From assembly GCF_021272185.1 (NCBI RefSeq), contig NZ_JAJSEC010000004.1, positions 62,001 through 126,000 on the forward strand: a DNA stretch of 64,000 bases. Reading direction: 5' to 3'. Position numbers and translations under genes: made by a program. The notes under the pieces were generated by a model, which saw only the letters and a list, made by a program, of their open reading frames with translations, did not search any database and was not told where the DNA came from. This document shows positions 5,529-52,107 of this stretch, piece by piece; within the stretch, counting starts at the first letter, position 1, and each line of letters begins with the position of its first letter. Source of the stretch: Roseivivax sp. GX 12232 (GTDB lineage Bacteria > Pseudomonadota > Alphaproteobacteria > Rhodobacterales > Rhodobacteraceae).

Positions 5529-5729
5529 TGGGATCTCCGGCGGTGGCGCGGCTGCGGGCCAGACTATTGAGCCTCATTGACCGGAATGGGGCAAGGCTGC
5601 GGCAATCGCGGGGAGGGCGCGCGTGGGGCGGGGAGCTGTGCGCGCGGGGGCGTCGCGCCGCTGCCTCAGCGCCCGTCCGGTGATCGGCGCAGAGTGCTCC
5701 GACCGGTCTGCGCCACTACGGCGCGCCCC

Positions 5730-7121: not shown

Positions 7122-7141
7122 GTCTGTCCTTCTGGTGAGCG

Positions 7142-7480
7142 TCAGGGCGAAAGGGTCAGGGCCGTGGCCAGCCCGAACCACGGCAGGGTGGTCGCAAGGC
7201 TGCCGCCAAGCCGGGTCCAGCGCGAGCCGCGCCCGCCGGCGAGCTTCTGCGCCGCCGCGGTCGCGCAGGCCAGGGCCGCGATCCAGGCGAGCCAGAGGCA
7301 GATGAGCGCCGCCAGCGGCCGCAGCGGGCCGAGCGTGATGCCCGCCAGCGCCAGGGTCAGCGCGCCGACCACCAGCGCGGCGAGGTTCACCCGCGAGGGC
7401 GGCGTGCGCAGCGCCAGAACGTAGAGAAGCGGCCCCGCGCCGAAGCAGAGCGCGAAGGCTAGGACCATCTCGGCGCTCAT
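7142..7480 (-). CDS. Small multi-spanning membrane protein inside the glycolate oxidase operon
   Basis: 112 aa, not recognised. The sequence is almost entirely hydrophobic, with about four predicted membrane helices (near residues 3-24, 30-50, 55-78 and 90-110) separated by short basic turns. It starts with ATG 7480 overlapping the glcE stop by four bases (ATGA) and ends 20 bp before glcF, so it is translated with the glycolate oxidase subunits. By position it could anchor the complex to the membrane or help glycolate entry, but that is inference from context only. Codon use resembles its neighbours. Confidence 0.7.
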   Translation of the reverse strand: MSAEMVLAFALCFGAGPLLYVLALRTPPSRVNLAALVVGALTLALAGITLGPLRPLAALICLWLAWIAALACATAAAQKLAGGRGSRWTRLGGSLATTLPWFGLATALTLSP

Positions 7481-21400: not shown

Positions 21401-22219
21401 TCAATCCCCCAACTTCGCGTGCACCTCGTCGAGGTCGATCTCGCCCACCGGCTGCTTGTTCGCCGGGTTCTCGAAATCGTATTTGAACAGCTCGAAGTCG
21501 CGCTTGTAGATCTCGTAGACCAGATGCATCGAGAGGTCGTCGAAGTAGTCCTCGACCGGATGCGCGCGCTTCGGACCGTGGCCCTCGCTCTCGTTGAAGC
21601 GCGGCACCTCGCCCAGCACCACCGGATGCGGCGTCTCGATCGCGTCGAGCACCTCCTGCATCCCGGGATTGAAACGCTCGGTCCAGAAGATCTTGTTGTA
21701 GCGCCCGCCGTTCACGATGAAGGTCGAGATATGCCCCGACATGGCCGACCAGTGGATGTCGGGCTCCATCGGCCGGCGCCAGCGGATGGTGTCGCGGGCG
21801 AAGAGCAGAAACCGCCGGAACGAGCGCACCTGGTCAAACTCCTCGGTGCCGTCCTCGCCACCGACCTCGATGCCGTATTTCTGGATCAGAAGCGGCACCA
21901 GGTTGCCGCGGTAGCGCTTGCCGTTGCGCTGGATGCCGCAGATCTTGTCGAAGAAGGACGAGAGGATGCGGCTGTAGGGATTGCGCACGCAGGTGAAGGC
22001 ATAGGCCGAGCGGGTCTTCACGTTGGCGCGGATCTTCGGCTGGCTGTCCTCGAGCGCCCATTTGTGCATGCCGCCGCGGGCGTCGTGAATGTCGCCGTCG
22101 TAGAAGCTGCCGTGATCCGAGTAATAGAGGATCTGACCGATCGTCGAACAGGCGCATTTCGGCACGACGCGATAGACGACGCTCTCGCTCTCGGTCATCC
22201 AGGTCCCGGGAAACCCCAT
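21401..22219 (-). CDS. Sulfotransferase family 2-type protein
   Basis: 272 aa, PAPS-dependent sulfotransferase of the carbohydrate type. The 5'-phosphosulfate loop is VPKCACSTI (residues 19-27) and the 3'-phosphate motif is RNPYSRILSSFF (79-90), both with expected Lys, Arg and Ser. It would transfer sulfate to a glycan or other acceptor, using PAPS and releasing PAP. Start taken at ATG 22219 (MGFPGTWM); an in-frame TTG at 22279 would add 20 unlikely residues. Divergent from the DUF5928/GT14 gene at 22363, sharing a 143-bp region. A PAP phosphatase gene (cysQ) lies at 57576-58373. Confidence 0.85.
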   Translation of the reverse strand: MGFPGTWMTESESVVYRVVPKCACSTIGQILYYSDHGSFYDGDIHDARGGMHKWALEDSQPKIRANVKTRSAYAFTCVRNPYSRILSSFFDKICGIQRNGKRYRGNLVPLLIQKYGIEVGGEDGTEEFDQVRSFRRFLLFARDTIRWRRPMEPDIHWSAMSGHISTFIVNGGRYNKIFWTERFNPGMQEVLDAIETPHPVVLGEVPRFNESEGHGPKRAHPVEDYFDDLSMHLVYEIYKRDFELFKYDFENPANKQPVGEIDLDEVHAKLGD

Positions 22220-22362
22220 CTTGTCTTTCTGCCCCTCACCCCCCGCGCTTGCGTCCCGCGCGGTCTTCGCGCCAAACAAGCAAACAAATCGGGTTCATTC
22301 AATCTTCGTTTAGGGTATCACCGGAATATCGGGGCAAAAACATGGGCGTGTCGTACCTGTAA

Positions 22363-23940
22363 ATGGCCAAGGTCGCCTTCATCCTGCTATGCCACAAGGA
22401 CCCCGCGGCGATCATCCGCCAGGCGCGATCGCTGACGGCGGTGGGCGATTACATCGCGATCCATTTCGACCGCAGCGCCGACCCCGAGGATTACCGCCGC
22501 ATCCGCGAGGAACTCTCCGAAAACCCCAATGTGGTCTTCGCCAAGAAGCGCCAGCGCTGCGGCTGGGGCGAATGGAGCCTGGTCGCCGCCACCCTCGAGG
22601 CGCTAACCGCCGCGGTCGAGGCCTTCCCCCGCGCCACGCATTTCTACATGCTCTCGGGCGATTGCATGGCGATCAAATCCGCCGAATACGCGCATGACTT
22701 CCTCGACCGGCGCGACGTCGATTACATCGAGAGCTTCGATTATTTCGAGTCCGACTGGATCAAGACCGGCTGGCGCGAGGAGCGGCTGATCTACCGCCAC
22801 TGGTTCAACGAACGGACCCAGAAGCGGCTTTTCTACGCGATGTTCGAGCTGCAGAAGCGGCTCGGGCTGACCCGCAAGATCCCCGCGGACATCGACGTGA
22901 TGATCGGCAGCCAATGGTGGTGCCTGCGCCGCCGCACCGTCGACTGGCTGCTCGACTTCATTCGCAGGCGGCCCGACGTGGTCTCGTTTTTCCGCACCAC
23001 CTGGATCCCCGACGAGACCTTCTTCCAGACGCTGGTGCGCCACCTCGTGCCCGAACGCGAGATCGAGAGCAGGACGCTCACCTTCCTGATGTTCACCGAT
23101 TACGGCATGCCGGTGACCTTCCACAACGATCACTACGACGTGCTCCTGAGCCAGGATTTCCTCTTCGCGCGCAAGGTCAGCCCCGAGGCGCATGACCTCA
23201 AGCGCCGGCTGGGGGTGCTCTATTCCTCCGAAGGGGTGCGCTTCGAGATCTCCAACGAGGGCCGGCAGCTCTTCGATTTCCTGACCGCCAAGGGCCGCAT
23301 CGGCCGCCGCTTCGCCCCCCGCTTCTGGGAGACGGAAAGCACGCTCGGCCGCGAGCGCGAGCTGCTGATCGTGGTCTGCAAGAAATGGCATGTCGCCAAG
23401 CGGCTGCTCGAACGCATCCGCCAGATGACCAACATCCCCTGCATCGAATATCTCTTCAACGAGGAGAACACCGCCCTGCCGGACCTCGGCGGCATCCAGT
23501 CGACCATGGTCAAGCGTCACCGCCACCGCCGGGCGCTGATGCGGATGCTCTACGACTACTACGAGACCGAGCGCATGCTGGTCTGCCTCGACCCGGTGAG
23601 CATCGACCTGCTCGAGGATTTCTGCCGCGACCGGGCGGTGACCCGCATCCTCGAGGTGGACTGCCACTTCTCCGACGACTACCTCACCGGCCATGCGATG
23701 CGCGTCGGCCTCGCCGGCGATCGCACCCCGCCCGAGACGCTGGCCCGGCTCCTGCCGACCGTGCGCAACGACATCCTGCACGAGAGCGACCGCATCCGTG
23801 ACGCGGAGTTCCCGAACTACCTGCGCATCCGCGAGGGCGAGACGCCGGAGGCCAATGCCGAGGCGCTGGCCGCCTTCCTCTCGCTCGGGCGCGACACGGC
23901 GATCGACATCGCCCGCACCGATTTTCTTTTCGCTGACTGA
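22363..23940 (+). CDS. GT14 core-2/I-branching-type glycosyltransferase with DUF5928
   Basis: 525 aa. The N-terminal about 280 residues match core-2/I-branching beta-1,6-N-acetylglucosaminyltransferase-like enzymes: FILLCHKDP at the start, IHFDRSAD, RCGWGEWSLV, FYMLSGDCM and GSQWWCL...TWIPDETFFQT. The C-terminal half (about 310-525) is the DUF5928 region seen in Rhodobacteraceae; the stretch LLIVVCKKWHVAKRLLERI suggests a further Rossmann-like domain. Cytoplasmic; probably adds a sugar branch to a surface glycan. Start ATG 22363 has no obvious ribosome-binding site. Divergent partner is a sulfotransferase; the HIT gene follows eight bases after its stop. Confidence 0.87.
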   Translation: MAKVAFILLCHKDPAAIIRQARSLTAVGDYIAIHFDRSADPEDYRRIREELSENPNVVFAKKRQRCGWGEWSLVAATLEALTAAVEAFPRATHFYMLSGDCMAIKSAEYAHDFLDRRDVDYIESFDYFESDWIKTGWREERLIYRHWFNERTQKRLFYAMFELQKRLGLTRKIPADIDVMIGSQWWCLRRRTVDWLLDFIRRRPDVVSFFRTTWIPDETFFQTLVRHLVPEREIESRTLTFLMFTDYGMPVTFHNDHYDVLLSQDFLFARKVSPEAHDLKRRLGVLYSSEGVRFEISNEGRQLFDFLTAKGRIGRRFAPRFWETESTLGRERELLIVVCKKWHVAKRLLERIRQMTNIPCIEYLFNEENTALPDLGGIQSTMVKRHRHRRALMRMLYDYYETERMLVCLDPVSIDLLEDFCRDRAVTRILEVDCHFSDDYLTGHAMRVGLAGDRTPPETLARLLPTVRNDILHESDRIRDAEFPNYLRIREGETPEANAEALAAFLSLGRDTAIDIARTDFLFAD

Positions 23941-24563: not shown

Positions 24564-25436
24564 TCAGTCCCTCGGCACTCTCTCGTAGGCCTCCAGGAGG
24601 CTCGACAGGCGCGTTTCGGTCTTCTGGTGCTGTTCGCTGTCCTCGGGCCGCGCGAGGATGTCCATCGCGAGCTTGTTGGCGGCGAAGGTGACGCCCCAGG
24701 AGAGGATGCGGCTAGGGTCCAGGCCGGTGCGGGCGTGAATGCGCTCCGCCATGCGGATCTGGCGGTTCGGGTCGTTCGCGATGCGCGGCATGTGGCTGGG
24801 ATTGGAGAGCGCCAAAGCGTATTCGGCCTCGGGCTCGCCGAAGAGCGGCAGGGGGTCGATGGTGCACCAGTGGCGCGGCGCGCCGATAATATTGGTGTGG
24901 TGCAGGTCGCCGTGCAGCATGCCCCTGTCGCCGCGCGCGTCGCGGTCGAGCGCCGCCGTCGCGATGCCGAGCGCGGTCCTGAAGGGGGCATTCGAGAGCA
25001 CCGCGCTCGCGGCGGGGTCGGCCATGAACATGGCGCTGAAGCGCTTGTCGAGGCGGCGCTCTGGGGTGAAGGCCTGGCGGCGGGCGCGGATCGCCTCGGC
25101 GACGTCGATGATGATCTCGGTGGCCTCCGCATCCCCTCCGCGCTCGACGATATGGGTCAGGAGCGCGCCGTCGAGATGTTCGAGCAGCAGGGCCTTCTCG
25201 GAGGCGCGCAGGAGCCGGACGCAGCGGTGGCCTTCCATGACCGCCAGAAGCTCCGGGGCCTCGGCCTCGTAGCCCGGCGTGCCCGCGTGGTAGACCTTGA
25301 GGATCGCCGGGGAGCCGTCCGCCTGCGCGACCTCGTAGATCTGGGCCCGCGACCGCGAGGGGCCTTCGGCTTTCAACGTCAGGTCCCATTCCGCGAGAAT
25401 CTGCGCAATGTCGGACTCTTCGAGATCCCTTGCCAT
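24564..25436 (-). CDS. APH(6)-like phosphotransferase (aminoglycoside/hydroxyurea kinase family)
   Basis: 290 aa with a protein-kinase-like phosphotransferase fold. Key residues visible are Lys47 (AILKVYH, ATP), the catalytic loop HGDLHHTN with Asp177 and Asn182, and Asp194 in CTIDPLPLFGEPEAEYA, the DFG equivalent. This arrangement resembles the streptomycin 6-kinase/hydroxyurea kinase branch (APH_6_hur). Chromosomal members often have unknown small-molecule substrates, so resistance should not be assumed. Start ATG 25436. Convergent with the HIT gene. Codon use resembles the core genes, while the region just upstream (25437-25965) is distinctly AT-richer. Confidence 0.8.
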   Translation of the reverse strand: MARDLEESDIAQILAEWDLTLKAEGPSRSRAQIYEVAQADGSPAILKVYHAGTPGYEAEAPELLAVMEGHRCVRLLRASEKALLLEHLDGALLTHIVERGGDAEATEIIIDVAEAIRARRQAFTPERRLDKRFSAMFMADPAASAVLSNAPFRTALGIATAALDRDARGDRGMLHGDLHHTNIIGAPRHWCTIDPLPLFGEPEAEYALALSNPSHMPRIANDPNRQIRMAERIHARTGLDPSRILSWGVTFAANKLAMDILARPEDSEQHQKTETRLSSLLEAYERVPRD

Positions 25437-26350: not shown

Positions 26351-26797
26351 TTACGCGGTCCGGCAGGGCCGGAGGTATTGCGCGGCATAGGAATAATCCA
26401 TGCGCTTCAGGCGGGAGGAAAGGCCGCCCTGCTGGGAAATCCACTGACGCACCCAGGCGGGGTAGCGTTTCACGAGGTAGTCCGTGCCCCATTTGTTCAT
26501 GTCGCTGCGGGCGCCGAAGGCACGGTGAAAATGAAAGGAGGCGCCGGGGGCGATGCAGGTCTGAGAGGGGCTCAGCGACAGGAACAGCGTACAGGCCGAG
26601 GCGCAGGGGCCGTTGAAGGCGACAAGCGTCTGCTGGTTGCGCGCCCGGGCGACCCGTTGGGCGTATTCGACGACGCTGCCGCCGTTGTCGCGGCCGATCA
26701 GCAGCACCTGCCCGTTCGAGCCGGTGTTGGCAGTGGTCGTGGTGGCCGTCAGGCAAGTCAATGCAATTGCCGCAGCAATACCTTTTAGGGATAGCAT
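26351..26797 (-). CDS. Exported ClpP/crotonase-fold-like small protein
   Basis: 148 aa with a signal peptide (MLSLKGIAAAIALTCLTATTTTA, cleavage near residue 23). The mature part contains NGPCASACTLFLSL followed by CIAPGASFHFHRA, a pattern seen in periplasmic proteins related to the ClpP class (COG3904-like), where the Ser of SACT is the expected nucleophile and a following His (FHFHRA) the base. Length is shorter than full serine-protease members, so it may be a minimal or non-catalytic version. Start ATG 26797 has GAGG upstream. Convergent with the 84-aa exported protein gene. Function not known. Confidence 0.68.
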   Translation of the reverse strand: MLSLKGIAAAIALTCLTATTTTANTGSNGQVLLIGRDNGGSVVEYAQRVARARNQQTLVAFNGPCASACTLFLSLSPSQTCIAPGASFHFHRAFGARSDMNKWGTDYLVKRYPAWVRQWISQQGGLSSRLKRMDYSYAAQYLRPCRTA

Positions 26798-27188: not shown

Positions 27189-30100
27189 TCAGCCCGCCGG
27201 CGCGGCAGGCACCGTCGAATCGACCGATACCCAACGGCAGGGCAGCTTGAACAGGGCCTCGAGCTCGCCTTCGGTGGGCATGCGCCGCCGCCTTGGGTCG
27301 AACATCGCATCAGAGCGCCCGGCGGCAGGGCAGAGCACCTCGAGCCCCTGGGCGGTGATCTCCGGGATGCCCTCGATCGGGATGCGCGCGAGGTAGGGAT
27401 CGCAGAGCACCACGGTCTTGGCCCTGGCCTCCTGGAAGGCGCTGATCTGCTCGATCCGGCCCGCGTCGAGCAGCTCGCTGATCTGCGGGCGGAAGGTCAG
27501 GTCGGTGTCGTTCTCGTAGTCGGGCCAATGGAAAATGCCGATCCGCCCGGCGCGGCGGCTCTCGGCCTCCACATGCGCCGCGATCCAGTCGACCCCCACC
27601 GCCTTGTTGGAGAAATCCGCGATGAAGAGGCACCTGAGCCGCGCCGGGCGATTGTCGCGCGGCAGGATCGGCCGGGGCGCCGGATAGGCGCGGCTGTCCT
27701 CGGCCTGCCAGGGCAGGGTCAGCTCCTCCGAGGGCAGCGCGGTTTGCCAGCGGCGATAGGTGCGGAAGTAATCCTTCCGCAGCCCGTGGAAGACCGTCTT
27801 CACATGCGTGACGCTTTGCTGGGTCAGCGAGTCCGGCCGCACCATGCTGAGGGCCAGCGGCAGGTCCCGGTCGGTCTCGGCCACGGCCCGCGCGCCGTAG
27901 CGCGTCTTGAACCGCCAGATGAACTCGTTGTCGCCGCCGGCGCGCACGTTGTCCCAAGGGCCGATCTCGGAAAGGACGGCCTTGGGGATCAGGAACGACG
28001 ATTGGTTCAGGCTGATCAGCATCTCCTCCGGGCGCCAGTAGCCGACCGCGAAGAGGTCGTCGTAGACACGCAGCCAGCGCGAGATGACGCCGACCGCCCC
28101 TTCCGCCTCGCGCAGGCGTTTGAGCTGCCATTCGATCTTCTGGGGATGCGACCAGTCGTCGGCGTCATGGACGGTGACATAGTCGCCGCTGGCCTGCGCC
28201 ATGCCGGCGTTCCGGGCCAGATAGGCGCCGCCGTTGGCGGGCATTTGGATCAGCGAGACCCGCGGGTCCTCGGCGGCGATGCGGGTCACGATCTCGCAGC
28301 TCTCGTCACTGCTGCAATCGTCGACCACGATGATTTCGAGGTTGCTCCAGGTCTGCTCGCGCATGCTGCGGATGGCGTTGCCGATCGTGGCCGCGCCGTT
28401 GAACATCGGCATGACGACCGAGACCTTGGCCTGTTGTAGCTGGCTCTCCGGCGGGCCGTCGAGGATCGCGCCGCGGATGTTGCTCAGGCTCAGCGGTTGC
28501 TCCGCGTCGCGCTTCTCGATGCCGACCGCGCCTTTGGTCAGGAAGACACGGTTGATCCAGGCGAGCCGCTCCGCCTCGCCCTCGGCGGGCGCATCGGGCC
28601 CCGGGCCGCCGTAGGTATTGGCGATCTGGAACAAGAGGTTGGGATCGTCGGGATTGCGGGCCAGCATCTGCAGCGCCAGCTCCCGCGCCGCCTCGGGCTG
28701 GCCAAGCTGGATGAGGCAGTTCGCCTCGGCCAGTACCAGCCCCCGCGAGCCCATCTTGCCCAGGGCGCGCGCCTCGCGGATGAACTCGAGCGAGGTCTTG
28801 TAATCGCCAAGATAGCTGGTCCAGCGGCCGAGGCCCCAGGCCGCCAGCGCGCGCTGGCTGGCGGGCGCCTTCGGCGCGCGGAGCGCCAGTTCCAGCGCGT
28901 CCCGGGCCGGGCCGGAATAGCCGCGCCAGAGACGCCGCTCGAGCACCGCGGGCGCGGGCTTGGCCAGCGGCCCCTCGACAAGGGCGTTGCGCGCGGCGCG
29001 CTCGGCCTCGGCGATCACCTTGGTGAGCGCGCTCGGCGCCTCCTGCGCGCCGCGTGCATGCAGGCTCGCCGAAAGCATCCAGAAGGGCATGATCCCGTCG
29101 TGCGGATGGAAGATGGGCTTGCGCGCGAAGCCCAGCGCCCGCTCGCTCCAGGCCTCGGGGGTGAACCGCGCCTGGGCCGCGTAGATCAGCGGCAGGATCC
29201 GGTCCTTGTCGAAGGCCGAGAGCTGCTTGTGCCCCCATTTCGGCTTCAGGTGTTCCGCCAGCAGCCAGCCGAAGGCATGCGCCAGCCCGCGCCCGTCCCG
29301 CGAGGTGAACTCCCACAGCCGGTCGCCGCATTGCTTGGCCAGCGTCGCCAGATGCGTCCAGCACTGCAGGTTGAAATAGCAGTAGTGCCGGGTCTGGGTG
29401 CGCTGCAGCTCGTGCTTCTGGACGCCGTTGCCGTCGAACTGCCCGGCGATCCGTTCGCGGCTCCTGCGGAAGGTCTCGCAGAGCCTGGGGATGTCGCCGA
29501 GATAGGCCGCGATGGCGCCGACCTGCAGGTCGTAACAGGTGCCGTGGTTGTTGCGCGCCCGCGCCTCCTGCAACCCTTGCGGGCTTTCGAGCAGCCAGGT
29601 GAGATATTCCTCCAGCCAGAGGGTCAGCGCGGCCTTGTCCGCCTCCGGCCAGGCGCCGGCGCGTTCGAGCAGGCGGACGGCGTCGAGCAGGAAGTAGAGG
29701 TCCTTCATCTCGATCAGCCCGCTCGCCGAGTGCGCCTCGCGCTGGGCCGCCGGGTTGACCTGGGCGAACTCCAGGTGCGGGGCCATGCGGGTCTCGGGGT
29801 CGATGAACCAGCACCTGAGCAGCCGCGCCGCGTGGTCGAGATAGGCGGTCTTGCCGCTCACCGTTCCGGCCAGCGCCAGCACGGTGGTGTCGTCGAAGAG
29901 CCGCTGCAGCCGCGTCCGGTCGTATTGGTCGCTGAGGGGCTCGTAGAGCACGGTGCCCGGCGCGCGCAGCCCGTCGCGGTAGGTGCCCGAGCGTCCGTCG
30001 GGGGCGTTGGGGTCGGGCCACCAATAGGGCGCGGGGTGGTAATAGTCGTGCTTGTCGCCGCTGGGCGGCGTCAGCGTCTTGTCCGTGACCGAATAGGGCC

Positions 30101-31898
30101 CGCGCTGCAGCGCCAGCTCGGCCTCCTGCAAGAGCCGGTCGCGGATCAGCCCTTTCGAGGAGTCCTGCGGGGCCGCGCGCAGCGCAAGCAGCGTGTCCTC
30201 GTCGTAAGCCGTCAGCCGCGCCGGATCGAAACCGCGCGCCAGCGCCTTGCGGTCCAGCTCGTCGAGGATCGTGACGATGGCCTCGGCCCGGGCGGCCCCG
30301 CGCCCAACCAGCGCCTCGGTCGACTGTTCGTCCAGATGCGCGCTGCCCGAGGAGAGCCGCGCCACCCAGCCCGCCTGGCCGAAGTCGCCGGCCTCCCTGG
30401 CGCGCGCCGGGCGCGGCAGGTCCCAGACGTCGTCCTGCCAGCTGTCCCAGGCACCGCGCACGCCCAGCCGCCAGAGCAGCTCGACCTTGGGGCGGCGCCC
30501 GTAGTGATAGCTTTCCTCGAACTCCTCCGAGGCGTCGCGGCGGAACAGGATCTGGGGCTCCTCGCCGGTCTCGGGGCGGTGGCCGCGCTTCAGCAGGTCG
30601 GCGTTGTCCAGCGTCCGCGCCATCGGCACGACGTGGTATTTCATGTAGGGCGCCTGCCCGACGTCGCGCAGGATCTGCGACCAGGCCGCCCGCGAGAGAT
30701 AGCAGTTGCCGTCCCAGGGCAGCACCCATTTCGCCCGCGTCCGGCCATCGCGCAGCGCCGCGTTGCGCGCGCCGTTGTTGTTCATCAGGTATCGGTTCTT
30801 GTGCCGCCGCGCATGGGCCTCGGCGCGCATCTGGTCGGCTTTCTGCATGTCATCGTAGCTGCCGTTCAGGAAGAAGGTCAGCTGCGGGAAACTGTCGAGA
30901 TCCCAGTCGACCTGGGCGTAGTTCTCGAGGTCGAAGGGGATGTGCAGATAGGGCTGCTTGTGCTTCTCCAGAAGCGCGAGGATCGCCGCCTCCTGCTCGG
31001 GGGCGGCGATCCGGTTGACCACCCAGCGCTTCTCGCAGCGGGTCAGCCGGGGTTCGTGCTCGAGGATGAACTCCAGGTTGGCCAGCGTCTGCCCGGCCTC
31101 GTGCCGGGGCGGCAGATCGTTGCCGAGGATCCGGTAGAGGACGAAGGTGTCCGCCTCCTGGTCGAGCCCGGTGTCGAGGTATTCCGCCTTCAGCGCCGCG
31201 ATGTCGGCCACCGCTGGCTCCGCGATGACCTCGGTCGGGCGGCGGGGATTGAACCGCGTGCCGGGATCGAGGTTGGCGCCCCGGAACAGGTCGTAATCCG
31301 TGAGCCGCGACCGCAGGAGGCCGGGCTTGCTGAAATCGAGCATGTAGGGCGGCGCCCACTTCGCCCAGATGGTGCGGAAGCGCGCGGTCAGGCGGTCGCC
31401 CGAGGGGGCCTCGAAATAGACGCTGCGCGGGAAGAACTCGACGATGCCCTCGGGGTCGAGGCGCGCCATCTGGTCGGCGTCGTCGGTCAGGAAAAGCGGC
31501 AGGATCGGCTTGGCCCCGCGCTGCATCCGGTCGATCTGCTTCAGCGCGGCGCAAAGCCCGGCGGCGTCGAGCCCGAAAAGCGCCACGGCGACCAGCGGCG
31601 GGGTGCCGCCCTGACCGGGGGCCCGCGGCGCGACCGGCCGGGCCTGCAGTGCTTTCGCGGGCGGGCTCTCGAGGCACCAGCCGGCCTCCTCGGCCCAGCT
31701 CGGATCGGGCAGCGCGGCGGCCTCGATGCGCGGGGTCCTCTCGGTCCGCCAGGCGACAGTCATCGCGCGCGGCTCGCCCGGCGCTGCCGCCGCAACGGGG
31801 CCCGCGGCCCGCGTGGCCCCCTGGGCGGCACAGGGCACGCCCGCGTCCATCTGGTCCTCGTCCTCACGCGGCGGTTCTGGGGCGTCGATCTTGTTCAT
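27189..31898 (-). CDS. Giant fusion protein: alginate-lyase domain joined to GT2 glycosyltransferase
   Basis: 1569 aa without signal peptide or obvious membrane helix. (1) Residues about 250-435 are an unrecognised domain (LYRILGNDLPPRHEAGQTL, KNRYLMNNNGARNAAL). (2) About 590-940 is an alginate-lyase family domain (PF05426): PPSGDKHDYY and PYWWPDP near 610-625, ARNNHGTCYDLQ near 782 with the Asn-His pair, and RTQTRHYCYFNL near 830 with Arg and Tyr matching catalytic positions. (3) About 980-1130 is helical-repeat-like (YLGDYKTSLEFIREA, LGQPEAARELALQML). (4) About 1157-1340 is a family-2 glycosyltransferase with VSVVMPMFNG, VVDDCSSD and HDADDW. (5) About 1415-1569 is a Rossmann-like tail. Start ATG 31898 overlaps the upstream glycosyltransferase stop (ATGA). 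A lyase-type domain fused to a cytosolic glycosyltransferase is odd; it may act in a polysaccharide synthesis or editing complex (inference). Confidence 0.85.
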   Translation of the reverse strand: MNKIDAPEPPREDEDQMDAGVPCAAQGATRAAGPVAAAAPGEPRAMTVAWRTERTPRIEAAALPDPSWAEEAGWCLESPPAKALQARPVAPRAPGQGGTPPLVAVALFGLDAAGLCAALKQIDRMQRGAKPILPLFLTDDADQMARLDPEGIVEFFPRSVYFEAPSGDRLTARFRTIWAKWAPPYMLDFSKPGLLRSRLTDYDLFRGANLDPGTRFNPRRPTEVIAEPAVADIAALKAEYLDTGLDQEADTFVLYRILGNDLPPRHEAGQTLANLEFILEHEPRLTRCEKRWVVNRIAAPEQEAAILALLEKHKQPYLHIPFDLENYAQVDWDLDSFPQLTFFLNGSYDDMQKADQMRAEAHARRHKNRYLMNNNGARNAALRDGRTRAKWVLPWDGNCYLSRAAWSQILRDVGQAPYMKYHVVPMARTLDNADLLKRGHRPETGEEPQILFRRDASEEFEESYHYGRRPKVELLWRLGVRGAWDSWQDDVWDLPRPARAREAGDFGQAGWVARLSSGSAHLDEQSTEALVGRGAARAEAIVTILDELDRKALARGFDPARLTAYDEDTLLALRAAPQDSSKGLIRDRLLQEAELALQRGPYSVTDKTLTPPSGDKHDYYHPAPYWWPDPNAPDGRSGTYRDGLRAPGTVLYEPLSDQYDRTRLQRLFDDTTVLALAGTVSGKTAYLDHAARLLRCWFIDPETRMAPHLEFAQVNPAAQREAHSASGLIEMKDLYFLLDAVRLLERAGAWPEADKAALTLWLEEYLTWLLESPQGLQEARARNNHGTCYDLQVGAIAAYLGDIPRLCETFRRSRERIAGQFDGNGVQKHELQRTQTRHYCYFNLQCWTHLATLAKQCGDRLWEFTSRDGRGLAHAFGWLLAEHLKPKWGHKQLSAFDKDRILPLIYAAQARFTPEAWSERALGFARKPIFHPHDGIMPFWMLSASLHARGAQEAPSALTKVIAEAERAARNALVEGPLAKPAPAVLERRLWRGYSGPARDALELALRAPKAPASQRALAAWGLGRWTSYLGDYKTSLEFIREARALGKMGSRGLVLAEANCLIQLGQPEAARELALQMLARNPDDPNLLFQIANTYGGPGPDAPAEGEAERLAWINRVFLTKGAVGIEKRDAEQPLSLSNIRGAILDGPPESQLQQAKVSVVMPMFNGAATIGNAIRSMREQTWSNLEIIVVDDCSSDESCEIVTRIAAEDPRVSLIQMPANGGAYLARNAGMAQASGDYVTVHDADDWSHPQKIEWQLKRLREAEGAVGVISRWLRVYDDLFAVGYWRPEEMLISLNQSSFLIPKAVLSEIGPWDNVRAGGDNEFIWRFKTRYGARAVAETDRDLPLALSMVRPDSLTQQSVTHVKTVFHGLRKDYFRTYRRWQTALPSEELTLPWQAEDSRAYPAPRPILPRDNRPARLRCLFIADFSNKAVGVDWIAAHVEAESRRAGRIGIFHWPDYENDTDLTFRPQISELLDAGRIEQISAFQEARAKTVVLCDPYLARIPIEGIPEITAQGLEVLCPAAGRSDAMFDPRRRRMPTEGELEALFKLPCRWVSVDSTVPAAPAG

Positions 31899-34006
31899 GA
31901 CATACGGACCACGCTTTGAATTGCCTCGGCCGCGTCCCCGGCGCCGTTGCCCTGGTACAGATCAAGACACTGGTGACGCACGAAATTCTGCGCCGCCTTC
32001 TGCAGAAGTGCTTCGCAGACGGCGGGCAGGTGAAAAAGCTCCTCCTCCGGCAGGTCGAAGCCGGCGTTGTGGTCCTGGGCGAACTCCGCCCGCACGCCCT
32101 GGGCATCGAGCGCGGGGTGGCGGTTGGCGACGAAGATCGTCGGCAACCCGCTGGCGATGATCTCGTGGAAGGTGTTGTAGCCCGCCGCCGAGATCGAGAA
32201 GTCGAAGGCGTTGAAGTAGTGGCTCAGCGGGTATCCCTGCAGGTGCCGCGCGGTCTGCCCGGCCGAGAGGGCCAGCGCGCCGCTCTGCGCATCGGCCAGC
32301 ACCACCTGCAGATCCGGGAAGCGCTTGAGGTGGTCGAGGATGTCCGCGGTCAGCCCCAGGACATCGCGGTTGCCGCTGGCCCCGAGCTGAACCAGCGCCA
32401 GGGCCTTGTCGCCTGGCAGCCCCAGCGCCTGCCGCGCGGCCTGGCGGGGCAGGAAGTCCGTCTGGTCGAGCAGTGTGACCGGCGCGACCTGCCGGGTCTC
32501 GTGGCGGCGTGTCGCCGTCGGCCCGTCGTCCCAGGCGCCGGCCACCTCGCCGGGCTCGATGATCAGGTCCATGAAGCGCGCGTTGTCGAGATCGCGCGAG
32601 GGCGATTGCAGCATCCCGCGCCGCACCCAGACAAGCCGGCAGTTCCCGCGCGAGAGGACCGCTTTCACCAGGCCCGGGCTCGGGTTGTTGCCGTCATAGA
32701 CCACGGCGTCCGGCGCGTAGCGGTCGATCAACCGCGCCAGCTCGACCCGCAGCCAGGCGTCCCAGGCCGCCCGGTCCGACCGGATCTTAGCCTGCGCCGG
32801 CAGGTATTCGGCGAGGTATCCGAAGGAGGTGATGATCGGCACCGAGGGCGCCAGGGTCGCGAAGATCGGCTCGGCGGCCGTGTCGAGGCGCCACGCGATG
32901 GCCAGCGAGCGGGTCACATGCCCGAGCCCCGCCCCGTCCGCCGGCACGAAGAGGATGCGCTTGCCGGGCCGCTTCCGCGGCCGCACCCGCCGCCGGGGGC
33001 CGCTCTCCAGAAGGGCTAGGACCCGCGCGCGGTGCGCCTCCTCCGAGAAGGAATAGCGGCTGTGCGTCAGCGCCTCTTCGCGGGCCCGGGCCAGGGCGGT
33101 CTCGTCCTCGGCCAACTCGCGGACCCTCTGCCGGGCGCTCGCGGCGCTGGCATAGACCGGGCCCGGGCCGAAGTGGCGTTCGAGATGCTCGGGCAGGACC
33201 ACGACCTTGCCCGAGGCCATGGCCGTCGCGATGGCGCTTTCGGGCAGCACCGGCACCTGGATGCCCGGGAAATACATGAAGACATCGAGCATCTCGATGA
33301 AGCGCGCGACGGTGATGTCCGCGGCGTCGAAGCCGGTCAGCCCGGCCCGCGACCGGATCCCCTGCCAGACCTTGGCCGAAGGCTTGCCGAGCACGCGGAA
33401 ATCCGTGCCATTGCCGATCGGATAGGTCGCCAGGATCTTCTGCGGGCTCGCCGGCCATTGCGCCGCGCCGGGCACGCTCACCCGCCCGAAGACCAGGGGC
33501 CCCGGCCGCCGCGTCCCCGGCTGCCGGACCGGCCGCGCCACCGGCCGCCAGTCCTCGGCCAGCATCGGCACCGGCAGATGCATCGCCGCCAGCGAGGCCC
33601 GCACCCAGCGGTTCGTCGGCGCCCAGTGCATCTCGCCCAGCTGGAAGCTGAACCACTTGCCGGCGTTCTCGATGGTCGATTTCTGGTCGTGCACCAGCAC
33701 CACCTTGTCCGCCCGCACCGAGGTCAGATCGGCCACCGGCCAGCTCATCGTCGAGGGCGAATAGCCAACCGCAAGCTTGGCGCGGATGTCCTGGTCCGCC
33801 CTGAGCGGCTGGGCCAGCCCCTCGCGGAAGCAGGCCTGCAGGTCGGGCGAGACGAAGCGCTTCGCCGGGTCGGGCTCCACGTGGACGACGCCGACACGGC
33901 ACCCCATGTCGCAATAGGTTCGGATTTCGTTGGACAGCCGCAGCCCCGCGTCGCCCTGCCGCGCCAGGTCGGCAAGCAGCACGATATCCGGGGAACCAAC
34001 CCTCAC
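31895..34006 (-). CDS. Double glycosyltransferase (GT4-like plus MurG/GT28-like)
   Basis: 703 aa in two halves. Residues 1 to about 340 resemble a GT-B (GT4-like) enzyme, with the C-terminal donor-site segment FMYFPG...PVLPESAIATAMASGKVVVLPE. From about 345 a second GT-B unit starts with ILFVPADGAGLGHVTRSLAIA, the glycine-rich loop of the MurG/GT28 group, and continues to ISAAGYNTFHEIIASGLPTIFV, the UDP-sugar binding signature. The start is a GTG at 34006; its context TCAGTGAGG is repeated in the leader at 34043-34053. A TTGACT-17-GAATAT promoter candidate lies at 34059-34087. The gene overlaps the giant fusion gene downstream, so the two make one operon devoted to a glycan of unknown structure. 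Confidence 0.83.
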   Translation of the reverse strand: MRVGSPDIVLLADLARQGDAGLRLSNEIRTYCDMGCRVGVVHVEPDPAKRFVSPDLQACFREGLAQPLRADQDIRAKLAVGYSPSTMSWPVADLTSVRADKVVLVHDQKSTIENAGKWFSFQLGEMHWAPTNRWVRASLAAMHLPVPMLAEDWRPVARPVRQPGTRRPGPLVFGRVSVPGAAQWPASPQKILATYPIGNGTDFRVLGKPSAKVWQGIRSRAGLTGFDAADITVARFIEMLDVFMYFPGIQVPVLPESAIATAMASGKVVVLPEHLERHFGPGPVYASAASARQRVRELAEDETALARAREEALTHSRYSFSEEAHRARVLALLESGPRRRVRPRKRPGKRILFVPADGAGLGHVTRSLAIAWRLDTAAEPIFATLAPSVPIITSFGYLAEYLPAQAKIRSDRAAWDAWLRVELARLIDRYAPDAVVYDGNNPSPGLVKAVLSRGNCRLVWVRRGMLQSPSRDLDNARFMDLIIEPGEVAGAWDDGPTATRRHETRQVAPVTLLDQTDFLPRQAARQALGLPGDKALALVQLGASGNRDVLGLTADILDHLKRFPDLQVVLADAQSGALALSAGQTARHLQGYPLSHYFNAFDFSISAAGYNTFHEIIASGLPTIFVANRHPALDAQGVRAEFAQDHNAGFDLPEEELFHLPAVCEALLQKAAQNFVRHQCLDLYQGNGAGDAAEAIQSVVRMS

Positions 34007-35740: not shown

Positions 35741-36336
35741 GCCCCGCCCGGGCGAGCGCGGCGCTTCTGGCGCTGGCGGCGCTCGGCACCGTGCTGGCGC
35801 GGATCTGGCTGAGCGTGAGTGAGGGCGAGAGCCTCGGCGCAGCGCTCTGGTCGCTCTTCCGCTACTTCACCCTCTGGACCAATACCGCCGTCGGTCTTTA
35901 CGCCGCCTGGGTGGCGATGGGCGGGCGCGGATCGGCGCGCCTGGCGGGCGGGCTGCTGCTGTCGATCCTGGCGGTGGGACTGGTCTATCACCTGCTGCTG
36001 GCGCATCTCAGCGACCTCTCGGGTCTCGAGGCGCGGATCGACGACATGCTGCACACCGTCGTGCCGCTGGGCTACCTGGCCTATTGGACCGGGGCCGCGC
36101 CCAAGGCGGGGCTGGGCCTGCGCGACCTGGGGCTCTGGCTCGGCTACCCGCTGGTCTATTGCCTCTACGCGATCCTCCGGGCGCAGCTCGACGGGGTCTA
36201 TCCCTATCCCTTCCTCGACGTCTCCGAGGCCGGGCCGGGCGGCGTTGCGCTGAACGTCCTGGGCCTTCTGCTGGCCTTCGGAGCGCTGGCGCTGGGGATC
36301 CAAGCGCTGGCCCGCAGGATGGCGCGCGGCGCCTGA
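35737..36336 (+). CDS. Pr6Pr family membrane protein
   Basis: 199 aa with six predicted membrane helices. The family feature is the helix-two/three region [20 protein letters not shown] and the later [28 protein letters not shown]. Related proteins include FAR-17a/AIG1-like hydrolases, but no function is established for bacterial Pr6Pr members. The start is GTG 35737, overlapping the preceding stop as GTGA, giving [11 protein letters not shown]. It precedes polA by 73 bp on the same strand. Confidence 0.85.
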
Positions 36337-36409
36337 GCGCGGCTTTCCATGTGCCGCGCCTCGGGATATGCCGGGGGCGACAGACGATTTGACCCAAGGA
36401 GCGCGCGAC

Positions 36410-39211
36410 ATGAGCTTCGGCAAAGGCTCTCACCTGCATCTCATCGACGGCTCCGCCTTCATCTTCCGGGCCTTCCACGCGCTGCCGCCGCTGACGCGCA
36501 AGTCCGACGGGCTGCCGGTGGGCGCCGTGCAGGGCTTCTGCGACATGCTGCGGCGCTATATCGCCAAGGACCACGGGGCGGGGGCGCCGACCCATATCGC
36601 GGTGATCTTTGACAAGGGCAGCCACACCTTCCGCAACGATCTGTACGACCAGTACAAGGCCAACCGCGACGAGATGCCCGAGGACCTGCGCCCGCAGATT
36701 CCGCTGACCCGGCGCGCGACGGAAGCCTTCAACATCGCCTGCAAGGAGATCGAGGGATACGAGGCCGACGACATCATCGCCACGCTCTCGGTGCAGGCGC
36801 GCGAGAAGGGCGGCCAGGTGACCATCGTCAGCTCCGACAAGGACCTGATGCAGCTCGTCGGCGGCGGGGTCGAGATGTTCGACGCCATGAAGAACCGCGC
36901 CATCGACGCCGAGGGGGTGATGGAGAAATTCGGCGTCGCGCCCGAGCGGGTGGTCGACGTGCAGGCCCTGGCCGGCGACAGCGTCGACAACGTGCCGGGC
37001 GCGCCGGGCATCGGGATCAAGACCGCGGCGCTTTTGATCAACGAGTTCGGCACGCTGGAAGAGCTTCTCGACCGCGCCGAGGAGATCAAGCAGCCGAAGC
37101 GCCGCCAGACCCTGATCGAGAAGCGCGAGCAGATCGAACTGTCGAAGAAGCTGGTGCAGCTCGACCGCGAGACGCCGCTCGACTTCGCGCTCGAGGATCT
37201 CGAGCTGCGCGACCCGGACCCTGAGACGCTCCTGGGGTTCCTGGCCGAGATGGAGTTCCGCAGCCTGTCGCGCCGGGTGGCCGAGACCCTGGGCGCCGAG
37301 GCGCCGGTCATCCCCGAAAGCGCCCCCGAGGCCGCCGCGGGCGAGGCCGAGGCGCCGGAACAGCCGGATTTCGCCGAGGCCGACTACAGCACGATCCGCG
37401 ACGCCGAGACCCTGCGAGGCTGGATCGACGCGGCGCGGGAACGCGGCTGGATCGCGCTGGATACCGAGACCACGGGGCTCGACGAGATGCGCGCCGAGCT
37501 GGTGGGGCTGTCCTTCGCCGTCGAGGCGGGCCGCGCGGCCTATCTGCCGCTTCTGCACCGCGATGCCGCCGAAGGCGACCTGTTCAACTCCGACGCGCTG
37601 CTCGAGGGGCAGATGGATCGGACCGAGGCGCTGGATCTCCTGAAGCCGCTGCTCGAGGATCCGGCGGTCCTGAAGGTCGGGCAGAACCTGAAATACGACA
37701 TGAAGATCCTCGCCCGCGTCGGCATCGAGGTGGCGCCGATCGAGGACACGATGCTGCTGTCCTACGCGATGAACGGCGGGCTGCACGGGCACGGGATGGA
37801 CCAGCTCTCCGAGCGCTATCTCGGGCACCAGCCGATCCCCATCAAGGAGGTGATCGGCACCGGCAAGAGTCAGATCACCTTCGACCGGGTGCCGATCGAG
37901 GCGGCGACGAAATACGCCGCGGAGGACGCCGACATCACCCTGCGGCTCTGGCAGGTCTTCAAGCCGCAGCTGCACCGCAAGAAGGTGACCCGCGTCTACG
38001 AGACCATGGAGCGGCCGCTGGTGCCGGTCCTGGCCGAGATGGAGCGCGCCGGCATCGCGGTCGACCGGGACGTGCTGTCGCGCATGTCCGGCGCCTTCGC
38101 GCAGAAGATGGCCGCGCTGGAGGAAGAGATCCACGAGCTGGCGGGGGAACGCTTCAACGTCGGCTCGCCGAAGCAGCTGGGCGAGATCCTCTTTGACAAG
38201 ATGGGGCTCGAGGGCGGCAAGAAGGGCAAGACCGGGGCTTATGCCACCGGCGCCGACGTGCTCGAGGACCTGGCGACCGAACACGACCTGCCGGCGCGGG
38301 TCCTGGACTGGCGGCAGCTCTCCAAGCTGAAGTCGACCTATACCGACGCCCTGCAGGAGCACATCAACCCCGAGACCGGGCGGGTGCATACCTCCTACGT
38401 GATCTCGGGGGCGAACACCGGGCGTCTGGCCTCGACCGATCCGAACCTGCAGAACATCCCCGTGCGCACCGAAGAGGGCCGCCGCATCCGCGAGGCCTTC
38501 GTTGCCGACACGGGCAAGGTGCTGGTCTCGCTCGACTACAGCCAGATCGAGCTGCGCATCCTGGCGCATATCGCCGGCATCGACGCGCTGAAGGAGGCCT
38601 TCCGCGAAGGCCAGGACATTCACGCCGCCACCGCCTCGGAGATGTTCGGCGTGCCGATGGAGGAGATGACCCCTGAGGTGCGGCGCCAGGCCAAGGCGAT
38701 CAACTTCGGGGTGATCTACGGCATCTCGGGCTTCGGGCTGGCGCGCAACCTGCGCATCCCGCGCGCCGAGGCGCAGGGCTTCATCGACCGCTACTTCGAG
38801 CGCTTCCCGGGCATCAAGGACTACATGTCCGAGACCACCGCCTTCGCGAAGGAACACAAGCGCGTCGAGACGCTCTTCGGCCGGGTGATCCACACGCCCG
38901 AGATCTCCGCCTCGGGGCCGCGCGCGGGCTTTGCCCGCCGGGCGGCGATCAACGCGCCGATCCAGGGCACGGCGGCGGACATCATCCGCCGCGCCATGGT
39001 GCGGATGCCGTCGGAAATCGCCGCGCTGCCTGCCAAGATGCTTCTGCAGGTGCACGACGAACTGCTCTTCGAGGTCGAGGAAGGCGCGGTCGACGATCTG
39101 ATCGCCGCGGCCCGCGGGGTTATGGAGAATGCCGCCGACCCGGTGGTGAAGCTCGATGTGCCGCTGGTGGTGGACGCCGGGCAGGGGCCGAACTGGGCCG
39201 AGGCGCACTGA
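36410..39211 (+). CDS. polA: DNA polymerase I
   Basis: 933 aa, three complete domains. The 5'-3' exonuclease (1 to about 290) includes LIDGSAFIFRAFHALPP and the metal-site segment YEADDIIATL...SSDKDLMQL. The 3'-5' proofreading exonuclease retains its metal ligands (Asp351 and Glu353 in LDTETTG, and YAAEDADITLRLW), so proofreading should be active. The polymerase has motif A DYSQIELRILAH (Asp709), motif B RRQAKAINFGVIYG and motif C VHDELLFEV (Asp883). It fills gaps in repair and removes RNA primers. Start ATG 36410 (MSFGKGSHLHLIDG) with AAGGAG upstream; an in-frame ATG at 36368 is less likely. Confidence 0.97.
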   Translation: MSFGKGSHLHLIDGSAFIFRAFHALPPLTRKSDGLPVGAVQGFCDMLRRYIAKDHGAGAPTHIAVIFDKGSHTFRNDLYDQYKANRDEMPEDLRPQIPLTRRATEAFNIACKEIEGYEADDIIATLSVQAREKGGQVTIVSSDKDLMQLVGGGVEMFDAMKNRAIDAEGVMEKFGVAPERVVDVQALAGDSVDNVPGAPGIGIKTAALLINEFGTLEELLDRAEEIKQPKRRQTLIEKREQIELSKKLVQLDRETPLDFALEDLELRDPDPETLLGFLAEMEFRSLSRRVAETLGAEAPVIPESAPEAAAGEAEAPEQPDFAEADYSTIRDAETLRGWIDAARERGWIALDTETTGLDEMRAELVGLSFAVEAGRAAYLPLLHRDAAEGDLFNSDALLEGQMDRTEALDLLKPLLEDPAVLKVGQNLKYDMKILARVGIEVAPIEDTMLLSYAMNGGLHGHGMDQLSERYLGHQPIPIKEVIGTGKSQITFDRVPIEAATKYAAEDADITLRLWQVFKPQLHRKKVTRVYETMERPLVPVLAEMERAGIAVDRDVLSRMSGAFAQKMAALEEEIHELAGERFNVGSPKQLGEILFDKMGLEGGKKGKTGAYATGADVLEDLATEHDLPARVLDWRQLSKLKSTYTDALQEHINPETGRVHTSYVISGANTGRLASTDPNLQNIPVRTEEGRRIREAFVADTGKVLVSLDYSQIELRILAHIAGIDALKEAFREGQDIHAATASEMFGVPMEEMTPEVRRQAKAINFGVIYGISGFGLARNLRIPRAEAQGFIDRYFERFPGIKDYMSETTAFAKEHKRVETLFGRVIHTPEISASGPRAGFARRAAINAPIQGTAADIIRRAMVRMPSEIAALPAKMLLQVHDELLFEVEEGAVDDLIAAARGVMENAADPVVKLDVPLVVDAGQGPNWAEAH

Positions 39212-50406: not shown

Positions 50407-52107
50407 CTACTTCCTGACCAGGTAGGGCTTGCGCGCCGGCCGCTGGCCGTGGCGCGGGGCGGGATCGACGGGGAAATCCCCCATCAGGTAGGGGTGCATC
50501 CCCTGGTTCTTGAGGTTCTGCAGGAACTGCCCGAAGCCGCTCAGATCGGCGAGCCGGGGCGCCTCGGCCAGCCGCCGGGTGGCGCGCTGGCCGATCTCGT
50601 CGATGATGATCTGCAGAGGCTCCATCGGGGCCTCGATGAACTCGGCCATGGTCCAGATGCGGATCCGCGCCTTGGCGTCGGGCGAGCGCAGCTCGTCCAG
50701 CATCTTGGCCTCGATCTTCTGGAGCGCCGCCGCCTCGGTCCGCAGGTCGGCGAAATCCCGGTTCGACTGGAAGAGCGGCACCGCCCAGGCGCCCGAGATC
50801 ACCGAGATCTGGGCATTGGGGTCCTGGGCGAAATGCCAGTTGATCTTGGGGTTGTCATGCGGGCCGTATTGAAAGCACTGCCGCTCGCCGCGGGTGTTCC
50901 AGACCAGGTTGGTGAGGAAGGCGCGCGGGTTGTAGTCGCGCAGCGCCGCGCTGTCGGCAAGCGCGCCGTTCAGGATGCGCTGACCGTTGACGAACTCGGC
51001 GCGCTCGGGCGCGTAGAGATGGCCGTGCACCTGCGCGCCCGTCGCCCGCGCGAGCCAGGGCTCGAAGTCCTGGAACAGCTCGGTGAAGCCCTGGAAGACC
51101 GAGTATTTCCCCGCCGTGCGGCCGTTCTCCCAGCCGTGGTTGGGAAAGCGCGACTGCATGTAGAGGCCGGCCCGCCCGCGGGTCCGCCGCTCCACCGCCT
51201 TGGCGAAGATGCGGTCGATTTTGCCGGGGTTGGGCTCGGTGGCGCTGGCCCCGCGCGCGCCTTCGCCCAGGAAGACCTGGTAGAGCCGCTCCGCATGCGG
51301 CCAGATCTTCCGCGCGACGAAACAATCCGAGCGCCGCAGGAGCTGCAGGTGATCGTCGTAGAAGATATGCGGCTTGCCCTGGAAATCGAACTTCGACAGC
51401 GTCAGCGAGCGGCTTTCGATATTGGTCGAATAAAGCCGCGCGAGGGTCTGGAAGTAGCTTTCGTCGGGGATCCAGACCGAGCGGAAGTAGCGGTCATGCG
51501 CGGCGCGGCGCGGGTCCTGCAGGATCGCCGAGAGCGTCTGCCGGGTCAGGCACCACCACTGGCTGCCCATATGCGGGGTGAGGCCCTCGGGGATGCGGCG
51601 GCGGTAGCCCACCGCGCGCTGCAGCTCGACGAAACGGTCGAAGAGATACCGCTGCCGCCGCCAGGAAAAGGGGAAATGCATGGTGAAGCGCTCTTCGTCG
51701 AGGCCGCCGACGGTCCAGGGCACATCGGCGGTGGTGGCGCTTTCGATGAAATCGGTGCGCGGGCGCTCCTCGAGATAGGCGATCAGCTCCTCGACCGGGC
51801 GCAGCGGCAGGCAGGAGCCCGAGGCCAGGTAGACATGGCGCACCTCGGGATGCGCCGAGAGCATCAGCTCGCTCGCGTCCTGGCTGGCGCGGACCAGCGC
51901 CCAGCTGCCCCAGTTGCAGGTGTGCCGGCGCGAGAAGCGGATCAACCCGTCGTCGGCCAGGGCCTCGCGGAAGGCGGCGAAGGCGCGCTGCGGCACCTTG
52001 CGGTCGACATGGATGACCACAGGGCAGCCCGCCCGCGTCCAGTGCCGCGCCACCTGTTCGGCGCGCCCCAGCGCGGTGTGCACCAGCATGACGATGCCGA
52101 CGCTCAT
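50407..52107 (-). CDS. GT14 core-2/I-branching-type glycosyltransferase (DUF5927-like C-terminus)
   Basis: 566 aa. N-terminal about 290 residues parallel the enzyme at 22363: VGIVMLVHTALGRA, VVIHVDRKVP, CNWGSWALVRA, YLASGSCLPL, GSQWWCLT and SVWIPDESYFQTL. The C-terminal half (about 300-566) is a family-specific extension including WENGRTAGKYSVFQGFT and a SISGAWAV-like stretch (VISGAWAVPLFQ). Probably transfers a sugar to form branches in a surface glycan. Start ATG 52107 overlaps the preceding gene stop by four bases; the sulfotransferase gene follows after seven bases. Confidence 0.85.
   Translation of the reverse strand: MSVGIVMLVHTALGRAEQVARHWTRAGCPVVIHVDRKVPQRAFAAFREALADDGLIRFSRRHTCNWGSWALVRASQDASELMLSAHPEVRHVYLASGSCLPLRPVEELIAYLEERPRTDFIESATTADVPWTVGGLDEERFTMHFPFSWRRQRYLFDRFVELQRAVGYRRRIPEGLTPHMGSQWWCLTRQTLSAILQDPRRAAHDRYFRSVWIPDESYFQTLARLYSTNIESRSLTLSKFDFQGKPHIFYDDHLQLLRRSDCFVARKIWPHAERLYQVFLGEGARGASATEPNPGKIDRIFAKAVERRTRGRAGLYMQSRFPNHGWENGRTAGKYSVFQGFTELFQDFEPWLARATGAQVHGHLYAPERAEFVNGQRILNGALADSAALRDYNPRAFLTNLVWNTRGERQCFQYGPHDNPKINWHFAQDPNAQISVISGAWAVPLFQSNRDFADLRTEAAALQKIEAKMLDELRSPDAKARIRIWTMAEFIEAPMEPLQIIIDEIGQRATRRLAEAPRLADLSGFGQFLQNLKNQGMHPYLMGDFPVDPAPRHGQRPARKPYLVRK

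Follow-up and report, generated by a model that had tools for sequence, protein, structure and literature searches.

A 64,000-nucleotide stretch of the genome of Roseivivax sp. GX 12232 (contig NZ_JAJSEC010000004.1, positions 62,001 to 126,000; hereafter the window) contains a two-gene operon whose downstream gene encodes a fusion protein of 1569 amino acids (aa), in which a predicted glycosyltransferase (GT) domain of the GT-A fold is joined to a PL38-type alginate lyase domain (Table 1). We tentatively propose that this fusion is a cytosolic uronate-glycan assembly enzyme with a core made of GT-A and PL38 domains, in which the latter would act by C5 proton abstraction on the nascent chain, most simply leading to elimination. 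An earlier note, made from the sequence alone, had described translationally coupled genes for proteins of 1569 and 703 aa and had read the locus as a lyase placed beside a GT2 synthase. Both open reading frames (ORFs) are intact on the reverse strand at the coordinates it gave, an ATGA stop/start overlap is seen between them, and the presence of a PF05426 domain with an intact active site on a glycosyltransferase chain is upheld. The interpretation itself is redirected, to a GT-A plus PL38 core to which the GT2 domain is accessory.

The middle domain of the fusion matches Alginate_lyase (PF05426) at aa 603-887 with an E-value of 3e-69 (233.9 bits against a cut-off of 22.2, covering profile positions 1-273 of 275), in agreement with the family named by the earlier note. 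By profile search, the nearest solved structures are 3nfv (E 3e-85) and 3nnb, and BoPL38, 8bdq (E 1e-67), and Foldseek on the predicted model agrees with PL38 (E 2e-14 to 3nfv). These PL38 lyases, BoPL38 of Bacteroides ovatus (8bdq and its mutants) and BACOVA_01668 (3nfv/3nnb), are homologous to the window domain over about 340 residues. Their solved chains are about 380-400 aa long and carry no glycosyltransferase, whereas the window domain is internal and lies on a glycosyltransferase chain without an evident export signal. The PDB titles of the BoPL38 mutant entries name Y91, D108, Q173, N242, H297 and Y298, and hand counting on a pairwise alignment maps these to Y625, D642, Q713, N784, H838 and Y839 of the window protein. 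Together with H785 and R833, these residues are identical in 9/9 proteins, that of the window included. Since all eight active-site positions are identical in this set, the loss of catalytic residues in homologues, which the earlier note had named as grounds for giving up its reading, was not observed. Judged by these alignments, the middle domain is of PL38 type with conserved lyase active-site residues. Export, a usual but non-defining trait of PL38, is not apparent in the window protein, the N-terminus of which is not hydrophobic (hydropathy only).

The N-terminal domain was called unrecognised in the earlier note, and this is true of Pfam, where six members gave no match at E-values up to 10; its predicted structure, on the other hand, is confidently GT-A. 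A profile built from these six members returned no credible match in the PDB (one at E 0.48). The structure was predicted from 13 sequences with a mean predicted local distance difference test (pLDDT) score of 91, and a structural aligner placed this model at Z 14.7 to the chondroitin polymerase K4CP (root-mean-square deviation 3.5 over 200 residues), at Z 13-14 to several bacterial glycosyltransferases and at about 12 to heparosan synthase 2 and LARGE1. The UDP-GlcA/UDP-GlcUA-bound entries 2z86 and 9e1t are in the aligner list, where a common fold does not fix the donor. GT-A enzymes, at E about 1e-3, head the Foldseek PDB list for the domain, and a predicted giant-virus GT2 protein matches the domain at E 3e-15 with 24% identity. 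On this model the domain has the glycosyltransferase GT-A fold and would be active as a glycosyltransferase. K4CP, heparosan synthase 2 and LARGE1 share that fold (Z 11.9-14.7) at 7-17% identity, and differ from the window domain in that the latter has DGN where DxD is expected. To our knowledge, none of the three carries a lyase domain.

Full-length homologues of the fusion were found in Rhodophyticola porphyridii (locus L033, 56% identity), in Roseobacter sp. HKCCD6576-2 (L034, 57%) and in three genomes of one genus (L070, L073 and L074, each about 43% identical to the window fusion); a contig from a metagenome-assembled genome (L035) carries the first 1007 aa at 51% identity. The complete fusion is thereby seen at six loci including the window, with L035 as one partial copy. 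The fusion of lyase and glycosyltransferase is conserved, as is its position directly behind a homologue of the 703-aa double-GT gene (7/7 loci including the window; L035 shows the 3' part of this homologue only). The distribution is sporadic: a profile of the N-terminal domain matches 4/385 genomes in a class sample and 4/394 in a family sample, the full-length fusion occurs in one of nine genomes of the window's genus, and the N-terminal domain is present in 3/5 genomes of the genus of L070. Among plasmids we found no relative of the N-terminal domain and none covering 80% of the fusion. A class survey was made of PF05426 frames over the cut-off and longer than 600 aa in 367 genomes, besides those of the window and of a broken gene in genome G541; the frames read, in G300, G311 and G261, are all without a GT domain in Pfam, and three further frames of 681-693 aa score below the cut-off. 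We found no description of a lyase-glycosyltransferase fusion like this one in the open-licence literature.

We next to this compared the modules of the fusion across its relatives. Of the cellular proteins with the GT-A domain that were collected, 13 in all, nine carry an intact lyase fused to it and one (G541) a broken lyase; the remaining three (a second copy in G171, and those of G322 and G426) have no lyase. L033, L034 and L035 were recovered with the full fusion as query, and the ten others with the domain alone; six of these ten are intact fusions and one is broken. In the six relatives of long architecture the GT-A domain is 62-70% and the lyase 54-66% identical to the window, and both domains keep 54-65% identity in the three relatives whose GT2 has lost its DxD. 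The GT2 domain itself (Glycos_transf_2, PF00535, aa 1160-1271, E 7e-32) has a DxD that reads DADD in the window and DSDD in L033/L034; its identity to the window is 56-60% in these two and only 24-28% in L070, L073 and L074. Two relatives, in G171 (786 aa) and G067 (766 aa), consist of GT-A and lyase only, and both have a hydrophobic, K/R-flanked N-terminus. Because GT2 is absent from these two proteins and degenerate in three full-length ones, sequence comparison indicates that it is dispensable and that the unit under constraint is the GT-A domain with the lyase. The C-terminal GT2 was consequently rejected as the main partner of the lyase, the role that the earlier note had given to this "synthase"; the domain that stays constant beside the lyase is the N-terminal GT-A. 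Related bacteria and plasmids also encode TPR-GT2 proteins that align with the last third of the fusion (about aa 986-1418, at 33-38% identity), and their matches stop short of its GT-A and lyase domains.

The mechanism that we infer involves catalytic activity of either domain, a cytosolic site, a uronate substrate, action on the nascent chain and an elimination outcome. In this model the GT-A domain would lengthen a chain that contains uronic acid by adding sugars, with help from the 703-aa glycosyltransferase of the coupled gene and, in certain species, from the C-terminal GT2. The PL38 domain would then take the C5 proton from a uronate of that growing chain. Given the active site, beta-elimination would be the simplest result, cutting the chain and leaving an unsaturated non-reducing end. 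The glycosyltransferases could not extend such an end, which may provide a built-in length control, a cap or a proof-reading step. The sugar nucleotides on which GT-A enzymes depend are cytosolic, so the fusion chain should face the cytosol. Hydropathy gave no clear transmembrane segment between GT-A and lyase; as only a soluble linker parts them, the lyase site should face the cytosol too. The absence of an export signal claimed by the earlier note also holds at the level of hydropathy, by which no signal peptide or transmembrane helix is evident in the window fusion (top 19-residue mean 1.98 at aa 101). A comparable peak is present in the fusions of G781 (1.46 at 88) and G782 (1.76 at 107), and none is found among the top three peaks of those of L033 and L034. 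That the fusion is kept in relatives with a conserved cutting site suggests, from sequence, that the lyase is part of chain making.

The genomic context of the operon touches on alginate. In G781 the following are found no more than about 20 kb away from it: an Alg8-like synthase gene, a PilZ-HlyD gene whose product we take to be Alg44-like, an AlgL-like PF05426 gene encoding a signal-like start, and a beta-helix/RTX gene whose product is presumably AlgE-epimerase-like. The same cluster contains galU, a sugar epimerase gene, galE and a polysaccharide-export-type gene, and two sulfotransferases (PF00685, E 4e-21, and PF13469, E 5e-14) are encoded about 19 and about 10 kb from the fusion gene, respectively. 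In G782 the cluster order, judged by ORF starts, is as in G781, and the synthase and PF05426 gene were confirmed there. Elsewhere in the window's genome, on a different contig (L078, G000:C3:38001-58000), there is an alginate-type cluster with genes for a sugar-nucleotide dehydrogenase, Alg8-like, GMP-PMI-like and DltB-like proteins, AlgX (E 4e-43 against 4knc), a Sel1-repeat protein and an AlgL-like protein; the AlgL-, GMP-PMI- and DltB-like genes score below their NCBIfam cut-offs. An Alg8-like synthase is present in 3/6 full-length fusion genomes and in 4/13 of all genomes searched, the fourth being G171 (the genome of L035 is outside this count). The background is 27/198 family genomes, in which a set of weaker matches, perhaps to other synthases, is counted. 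Because the synthase is absent from 3/6 fusion genomes, the substrate is not simply alginate, and we rejected alginate as an obligatory substrate in general.

Several observations weigh against the proposed assembly enzyme and its link to alginate. In 9/9 GT-A+lyase proteins a DGN, and not a classical DxD, stands near the usual place of the latter (G541, G322 and G426 have DGW or DGA). The N-terminal domain has no Foldseek PDB match at E 0.001 or better, and the two-domain model of GT-A with lyase is of low confidence (pLDDT 64). The GT2 domain is degenerate in L070, L073 and L074, where its DxD reads NPTD, DPTD or AAGE, VVDD is missing and other residues stand in place of the DNEF stretch. 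The name Alg8 is our assumption from context, with nothing in NCBIfam at E 1e-30, nothing in the PDB and only general GT2 models in Pfam. Neither G624 nor the genomes of L033 and L034 have a match to the synthase profile, and the enrichment of the synthase is weak (3/6 versus 26/197, Fisher p 0.039), two of the three positives coming from one genus.

The main rival to elimination is epimerisation. Lyases and epimerases have their first reaction step in common, and the PL38 domain might be a biosynthetic C5-epimerase that takes the C5-H of glucuronic acid (GlcA) or mannuronic acid (ManA) in the nascent chain and re-protonates the other face, with sulfation next. DS-epi1 is a precedent for a lyase-like toroid acting in dermatan sulfate synthesis: it is described as an (alpha/alpha)6 toroid that structurally matches, among others, the alginate lyase 3A0O, and the authors of that study propose that very small changes in the active site convert a lyase to an epimerase (PMC8006597). 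DS-epi2, described as bearing a C-terminal O-sulfotransferase domain, is a precedent for fusion with a modifying enzyme (PMC13308652). Both use a lyase-like toroid in synthesis, as we propose for the lyase of the fusion; they differ in being eukaryotic and assigned to Pfam DUF4962 (PMC8006597). The archaeal GlcA C5-epimerase Agl32 was rejected as a precedent, being reported as structurally nearer another superfamily (PMC13308652). Epimerisation would also suit the G781 locus, where two sulfotransferase genes lie at distances of about 10 and 19 kb from the operon, and the resemblance in fold of the GT-A domain to glycosaminoglycan (GAG) synthases. However, each active-site residue examined matches a true lyase, sulfotransferases beside other relatives are seen at motif level only, and the G781 cluster already encodes the beta-helix/RTX protein that we take for an AlgE-like epimerase. 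We consider epimerisation unlikely, while keeping it as the principal competitor of the elimination that we favour.

A salvage or quality-control lyase, which would destroy mislocalised or imported uronate oligosaccharides in the cytosol while the GT domain merely binds the chain, appears improbable. It would fit the retention of all lyase residues, and a precedent is offered by AlgL, which is of PL5 type. In the published account, AlgL acts in the periplasm to degrade misguided alginate and is dispensable for production, while its over-production can affect alginate polymer length (PMC5099689). It is a PF05426 lyase encoded with polysaccharide synthesis, and an AlgL-like gene is present in the window's genome and in the G781/G782 clusters; it differs from the fusion in being a separate periplasmic protein (PMC5099689) and in lacking a glycosyltransferase partner on its chain. 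Against salvage, GT-A is the most conserved module among the full-length relatives (62-70%), which is unusual for a mere binding domain. Less probable still is that the lyase domain is non-catalytic and serves in glycan binding or as a scaffold: inactive domains do occur in the family, as the degeneration of GT2 on the same chain in three relatives indicates, but a dead lyase would be expected to drift like this GT2, and its eight active-site positions are invariant in 9/9 proteins. That a frameshift or assembly error fused separate genes, a possibility that the earlier note had named, has almost no chance of being correct. GT-A with lyase exists as a separate protein in two genomes, so the modules are separable, but separate assemblies have the same domain order, and the fusion is open at all six complete loci, of which five belong to genomes other than that of the window.

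The 703-aa protein had been described as having two GT-B domains. This claim is borne out for the C-terminal half, which matches Glyco_tran_28_C in Pfam and, by profile, a processive diacylglycerol glucosyltransferase (9wde). Because neither Pfam nor the PDB gives a match to the N-terminal half, the claim is only half shown, and two GT-B domains are plausible. In the family sample, where up to two candidates were scored for each genome, this protein family occurs in 49/394 genomes, and each half also occurs alone; 17 entries, the window's genome and G624 included, are long matches at E <1e-85. Eleven distant double-GT loci (L103-L113) and a half-copy locus (L114) showed no GT-A or lyase module within the 13-17.5 kb read. 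With a family this widespread, and such modules at 0/11 distant loci, the 703-aa protein was rejected as a dedicated partner of the fusion.

Other settings of the GT-A domain were seen. G171 (L059, L061) has a GT-A+lyase protein and a stand-alone GT-A copy in one genome, the latter adjoining an ABC exporter, and the G067 copy sits between a GT2-like gene and a 387-aa gene, followed by an ABC exporter. In G541 (L064:1419-2843; G541:C117:975-1634) the GT-A+lyase gene is broken by a stop and its lyase motifs are weakened; it is probably a decayed copy. Viral contigs of marine phage (L100, positions 4983-8089, L101 and L102) carry a stand-alone GT-A relative at 31% identity, and on L100 three ORFs after it have sulfotransferase-like P-loops by eye, without Pfam support. 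At L062:9884-11992 and L063:8231-10639 the GT-A lies behind another N-terminal domain, with a sulfotransferase-like P-loop by eye in L063; a GT2-type gene follows in both cases, with a Pfam basis for L063 only. For the domain before GT-A in G322/G426, and for the gene beside that of G067, a P-loop motif hints at a sulfotransferase, an identity that we do not claim (Pfam nothing or E 0.085; PDB nothing convincing).

The ATGA at the operon junction is found in L074 and L070 too, where the listed ORF starts lie further upstream. In the linker of the fusion, two TPR models are narrowly sub-threshold at aa 1031-1093. Relatives of the neighbouring 148-aa gene stand beside the operon in L034, L070, L073 and L074; none was found at L033, whose contig ends 214 bases past the fusion. 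For this protein the one Pfam hit is DUF4248, at E 0.14 with the window copy, and the copies of L070, L073 and L074 have none; NCBIfam returned nothing for the window and L073 copies, and the PDB nothing convincing for the L074 copy. A ClpP-like reading of it is our assumption from the Ser/His/Asp spacing as judged by eye. The APH(6)-like gene has no match in L070, L073 and L074. A PF03567 sulfotransferase gene (window 21401-22279, reverse strand) adjoins a Branch-DUF5928 gene (22363-23940, forward strand), and positions 51106-52104 hold another stretch with 34% identity to the latter; neither the sulfotransferase nor the Branch genes have a match in the other nine loci compared. Two long antisense ORFs, of 1140 aa (28497-31919, forward strand) and 1066 aa (36008-39208, reverse strand), lie opposite real genes, as can happen at high G+C; for the second, Pfam and NCBIfam give no match.

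Table 1. Operon, domains of the fusion protein and neighbouring genes, in window coordinates
Feature	Position	Strand	Basis and remarks
APH(6)-like kinase gene	24564..25436	-	47-49% identity to genes that adjoin the operon, differently arranged, in L033 and L034
Gene for 148-aa protein, signal-like N-terminus, conserved Ser, His, Asp (SAC, FH, RMDY)	26354..26797	-	Alignment of relatives
Fusion protein gene, 1569 aa	27189..31898	-	ORF list, Pfam, homologues; order: small N-terminal region, GT-A, PL38-type lyase, TPR-like linker, GT2, tail
C-terminal tail, aa 1421-1569	27192..27638	-	Alignment of relatives
GT2 domain, aa 1155-1420	27639..28436	-	Pfam; DADD in window protein
TPR-like linker, aa 945-1150	28449..29066	-	TPR_14/TPR_19 just under Pfam cut-off
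PL38-type alginate lyase domain, aa 575-930	29109..30176	-	PF05426 at aa 603-887
N-terminal GT-A-fold domain (predicted), aa 245-560	30219..31166	-	Predicted fold; no Pfam; DGN at aa 396-398
Small N-terminal region, aa 75-225	31224..31676	-	32-42% identity in six relatives; missing from two short relatives
ATGA stop/start overlap of both genes	31895..31898	-	Same four letters in L033, L034, L035 and L073
703-aa protein gene, upstream of fusion	31895..34006	-	C-terminal half GT28/MurG/PseG-like GT-B (Pfam, PDB profile match)

A broader and more speculative hypothesis, which we regard as doubtful at present, is that of a bacterial GAG-like pathway in which one cytosolic polypeptide both polymerises and carries out C5-uronate chemistry, either capping elimination or epimerisation, by means of a Pfam-less GT-A family that may be associated with sulfotransferases in both bacteria and marine phages. 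The known roles of polysaccharide lyases are in degradation or, in alginate producers, in periplasmic clean-up. If the proposal is true, lyase-type chemistry would here be a step of synthesis, and chain length, end group or epimer pattern would be set during growth. A GT-A family not modelled in Pfam would also gain a context, and the fusion would become a concrete candidate for producing defined uronate glycans.

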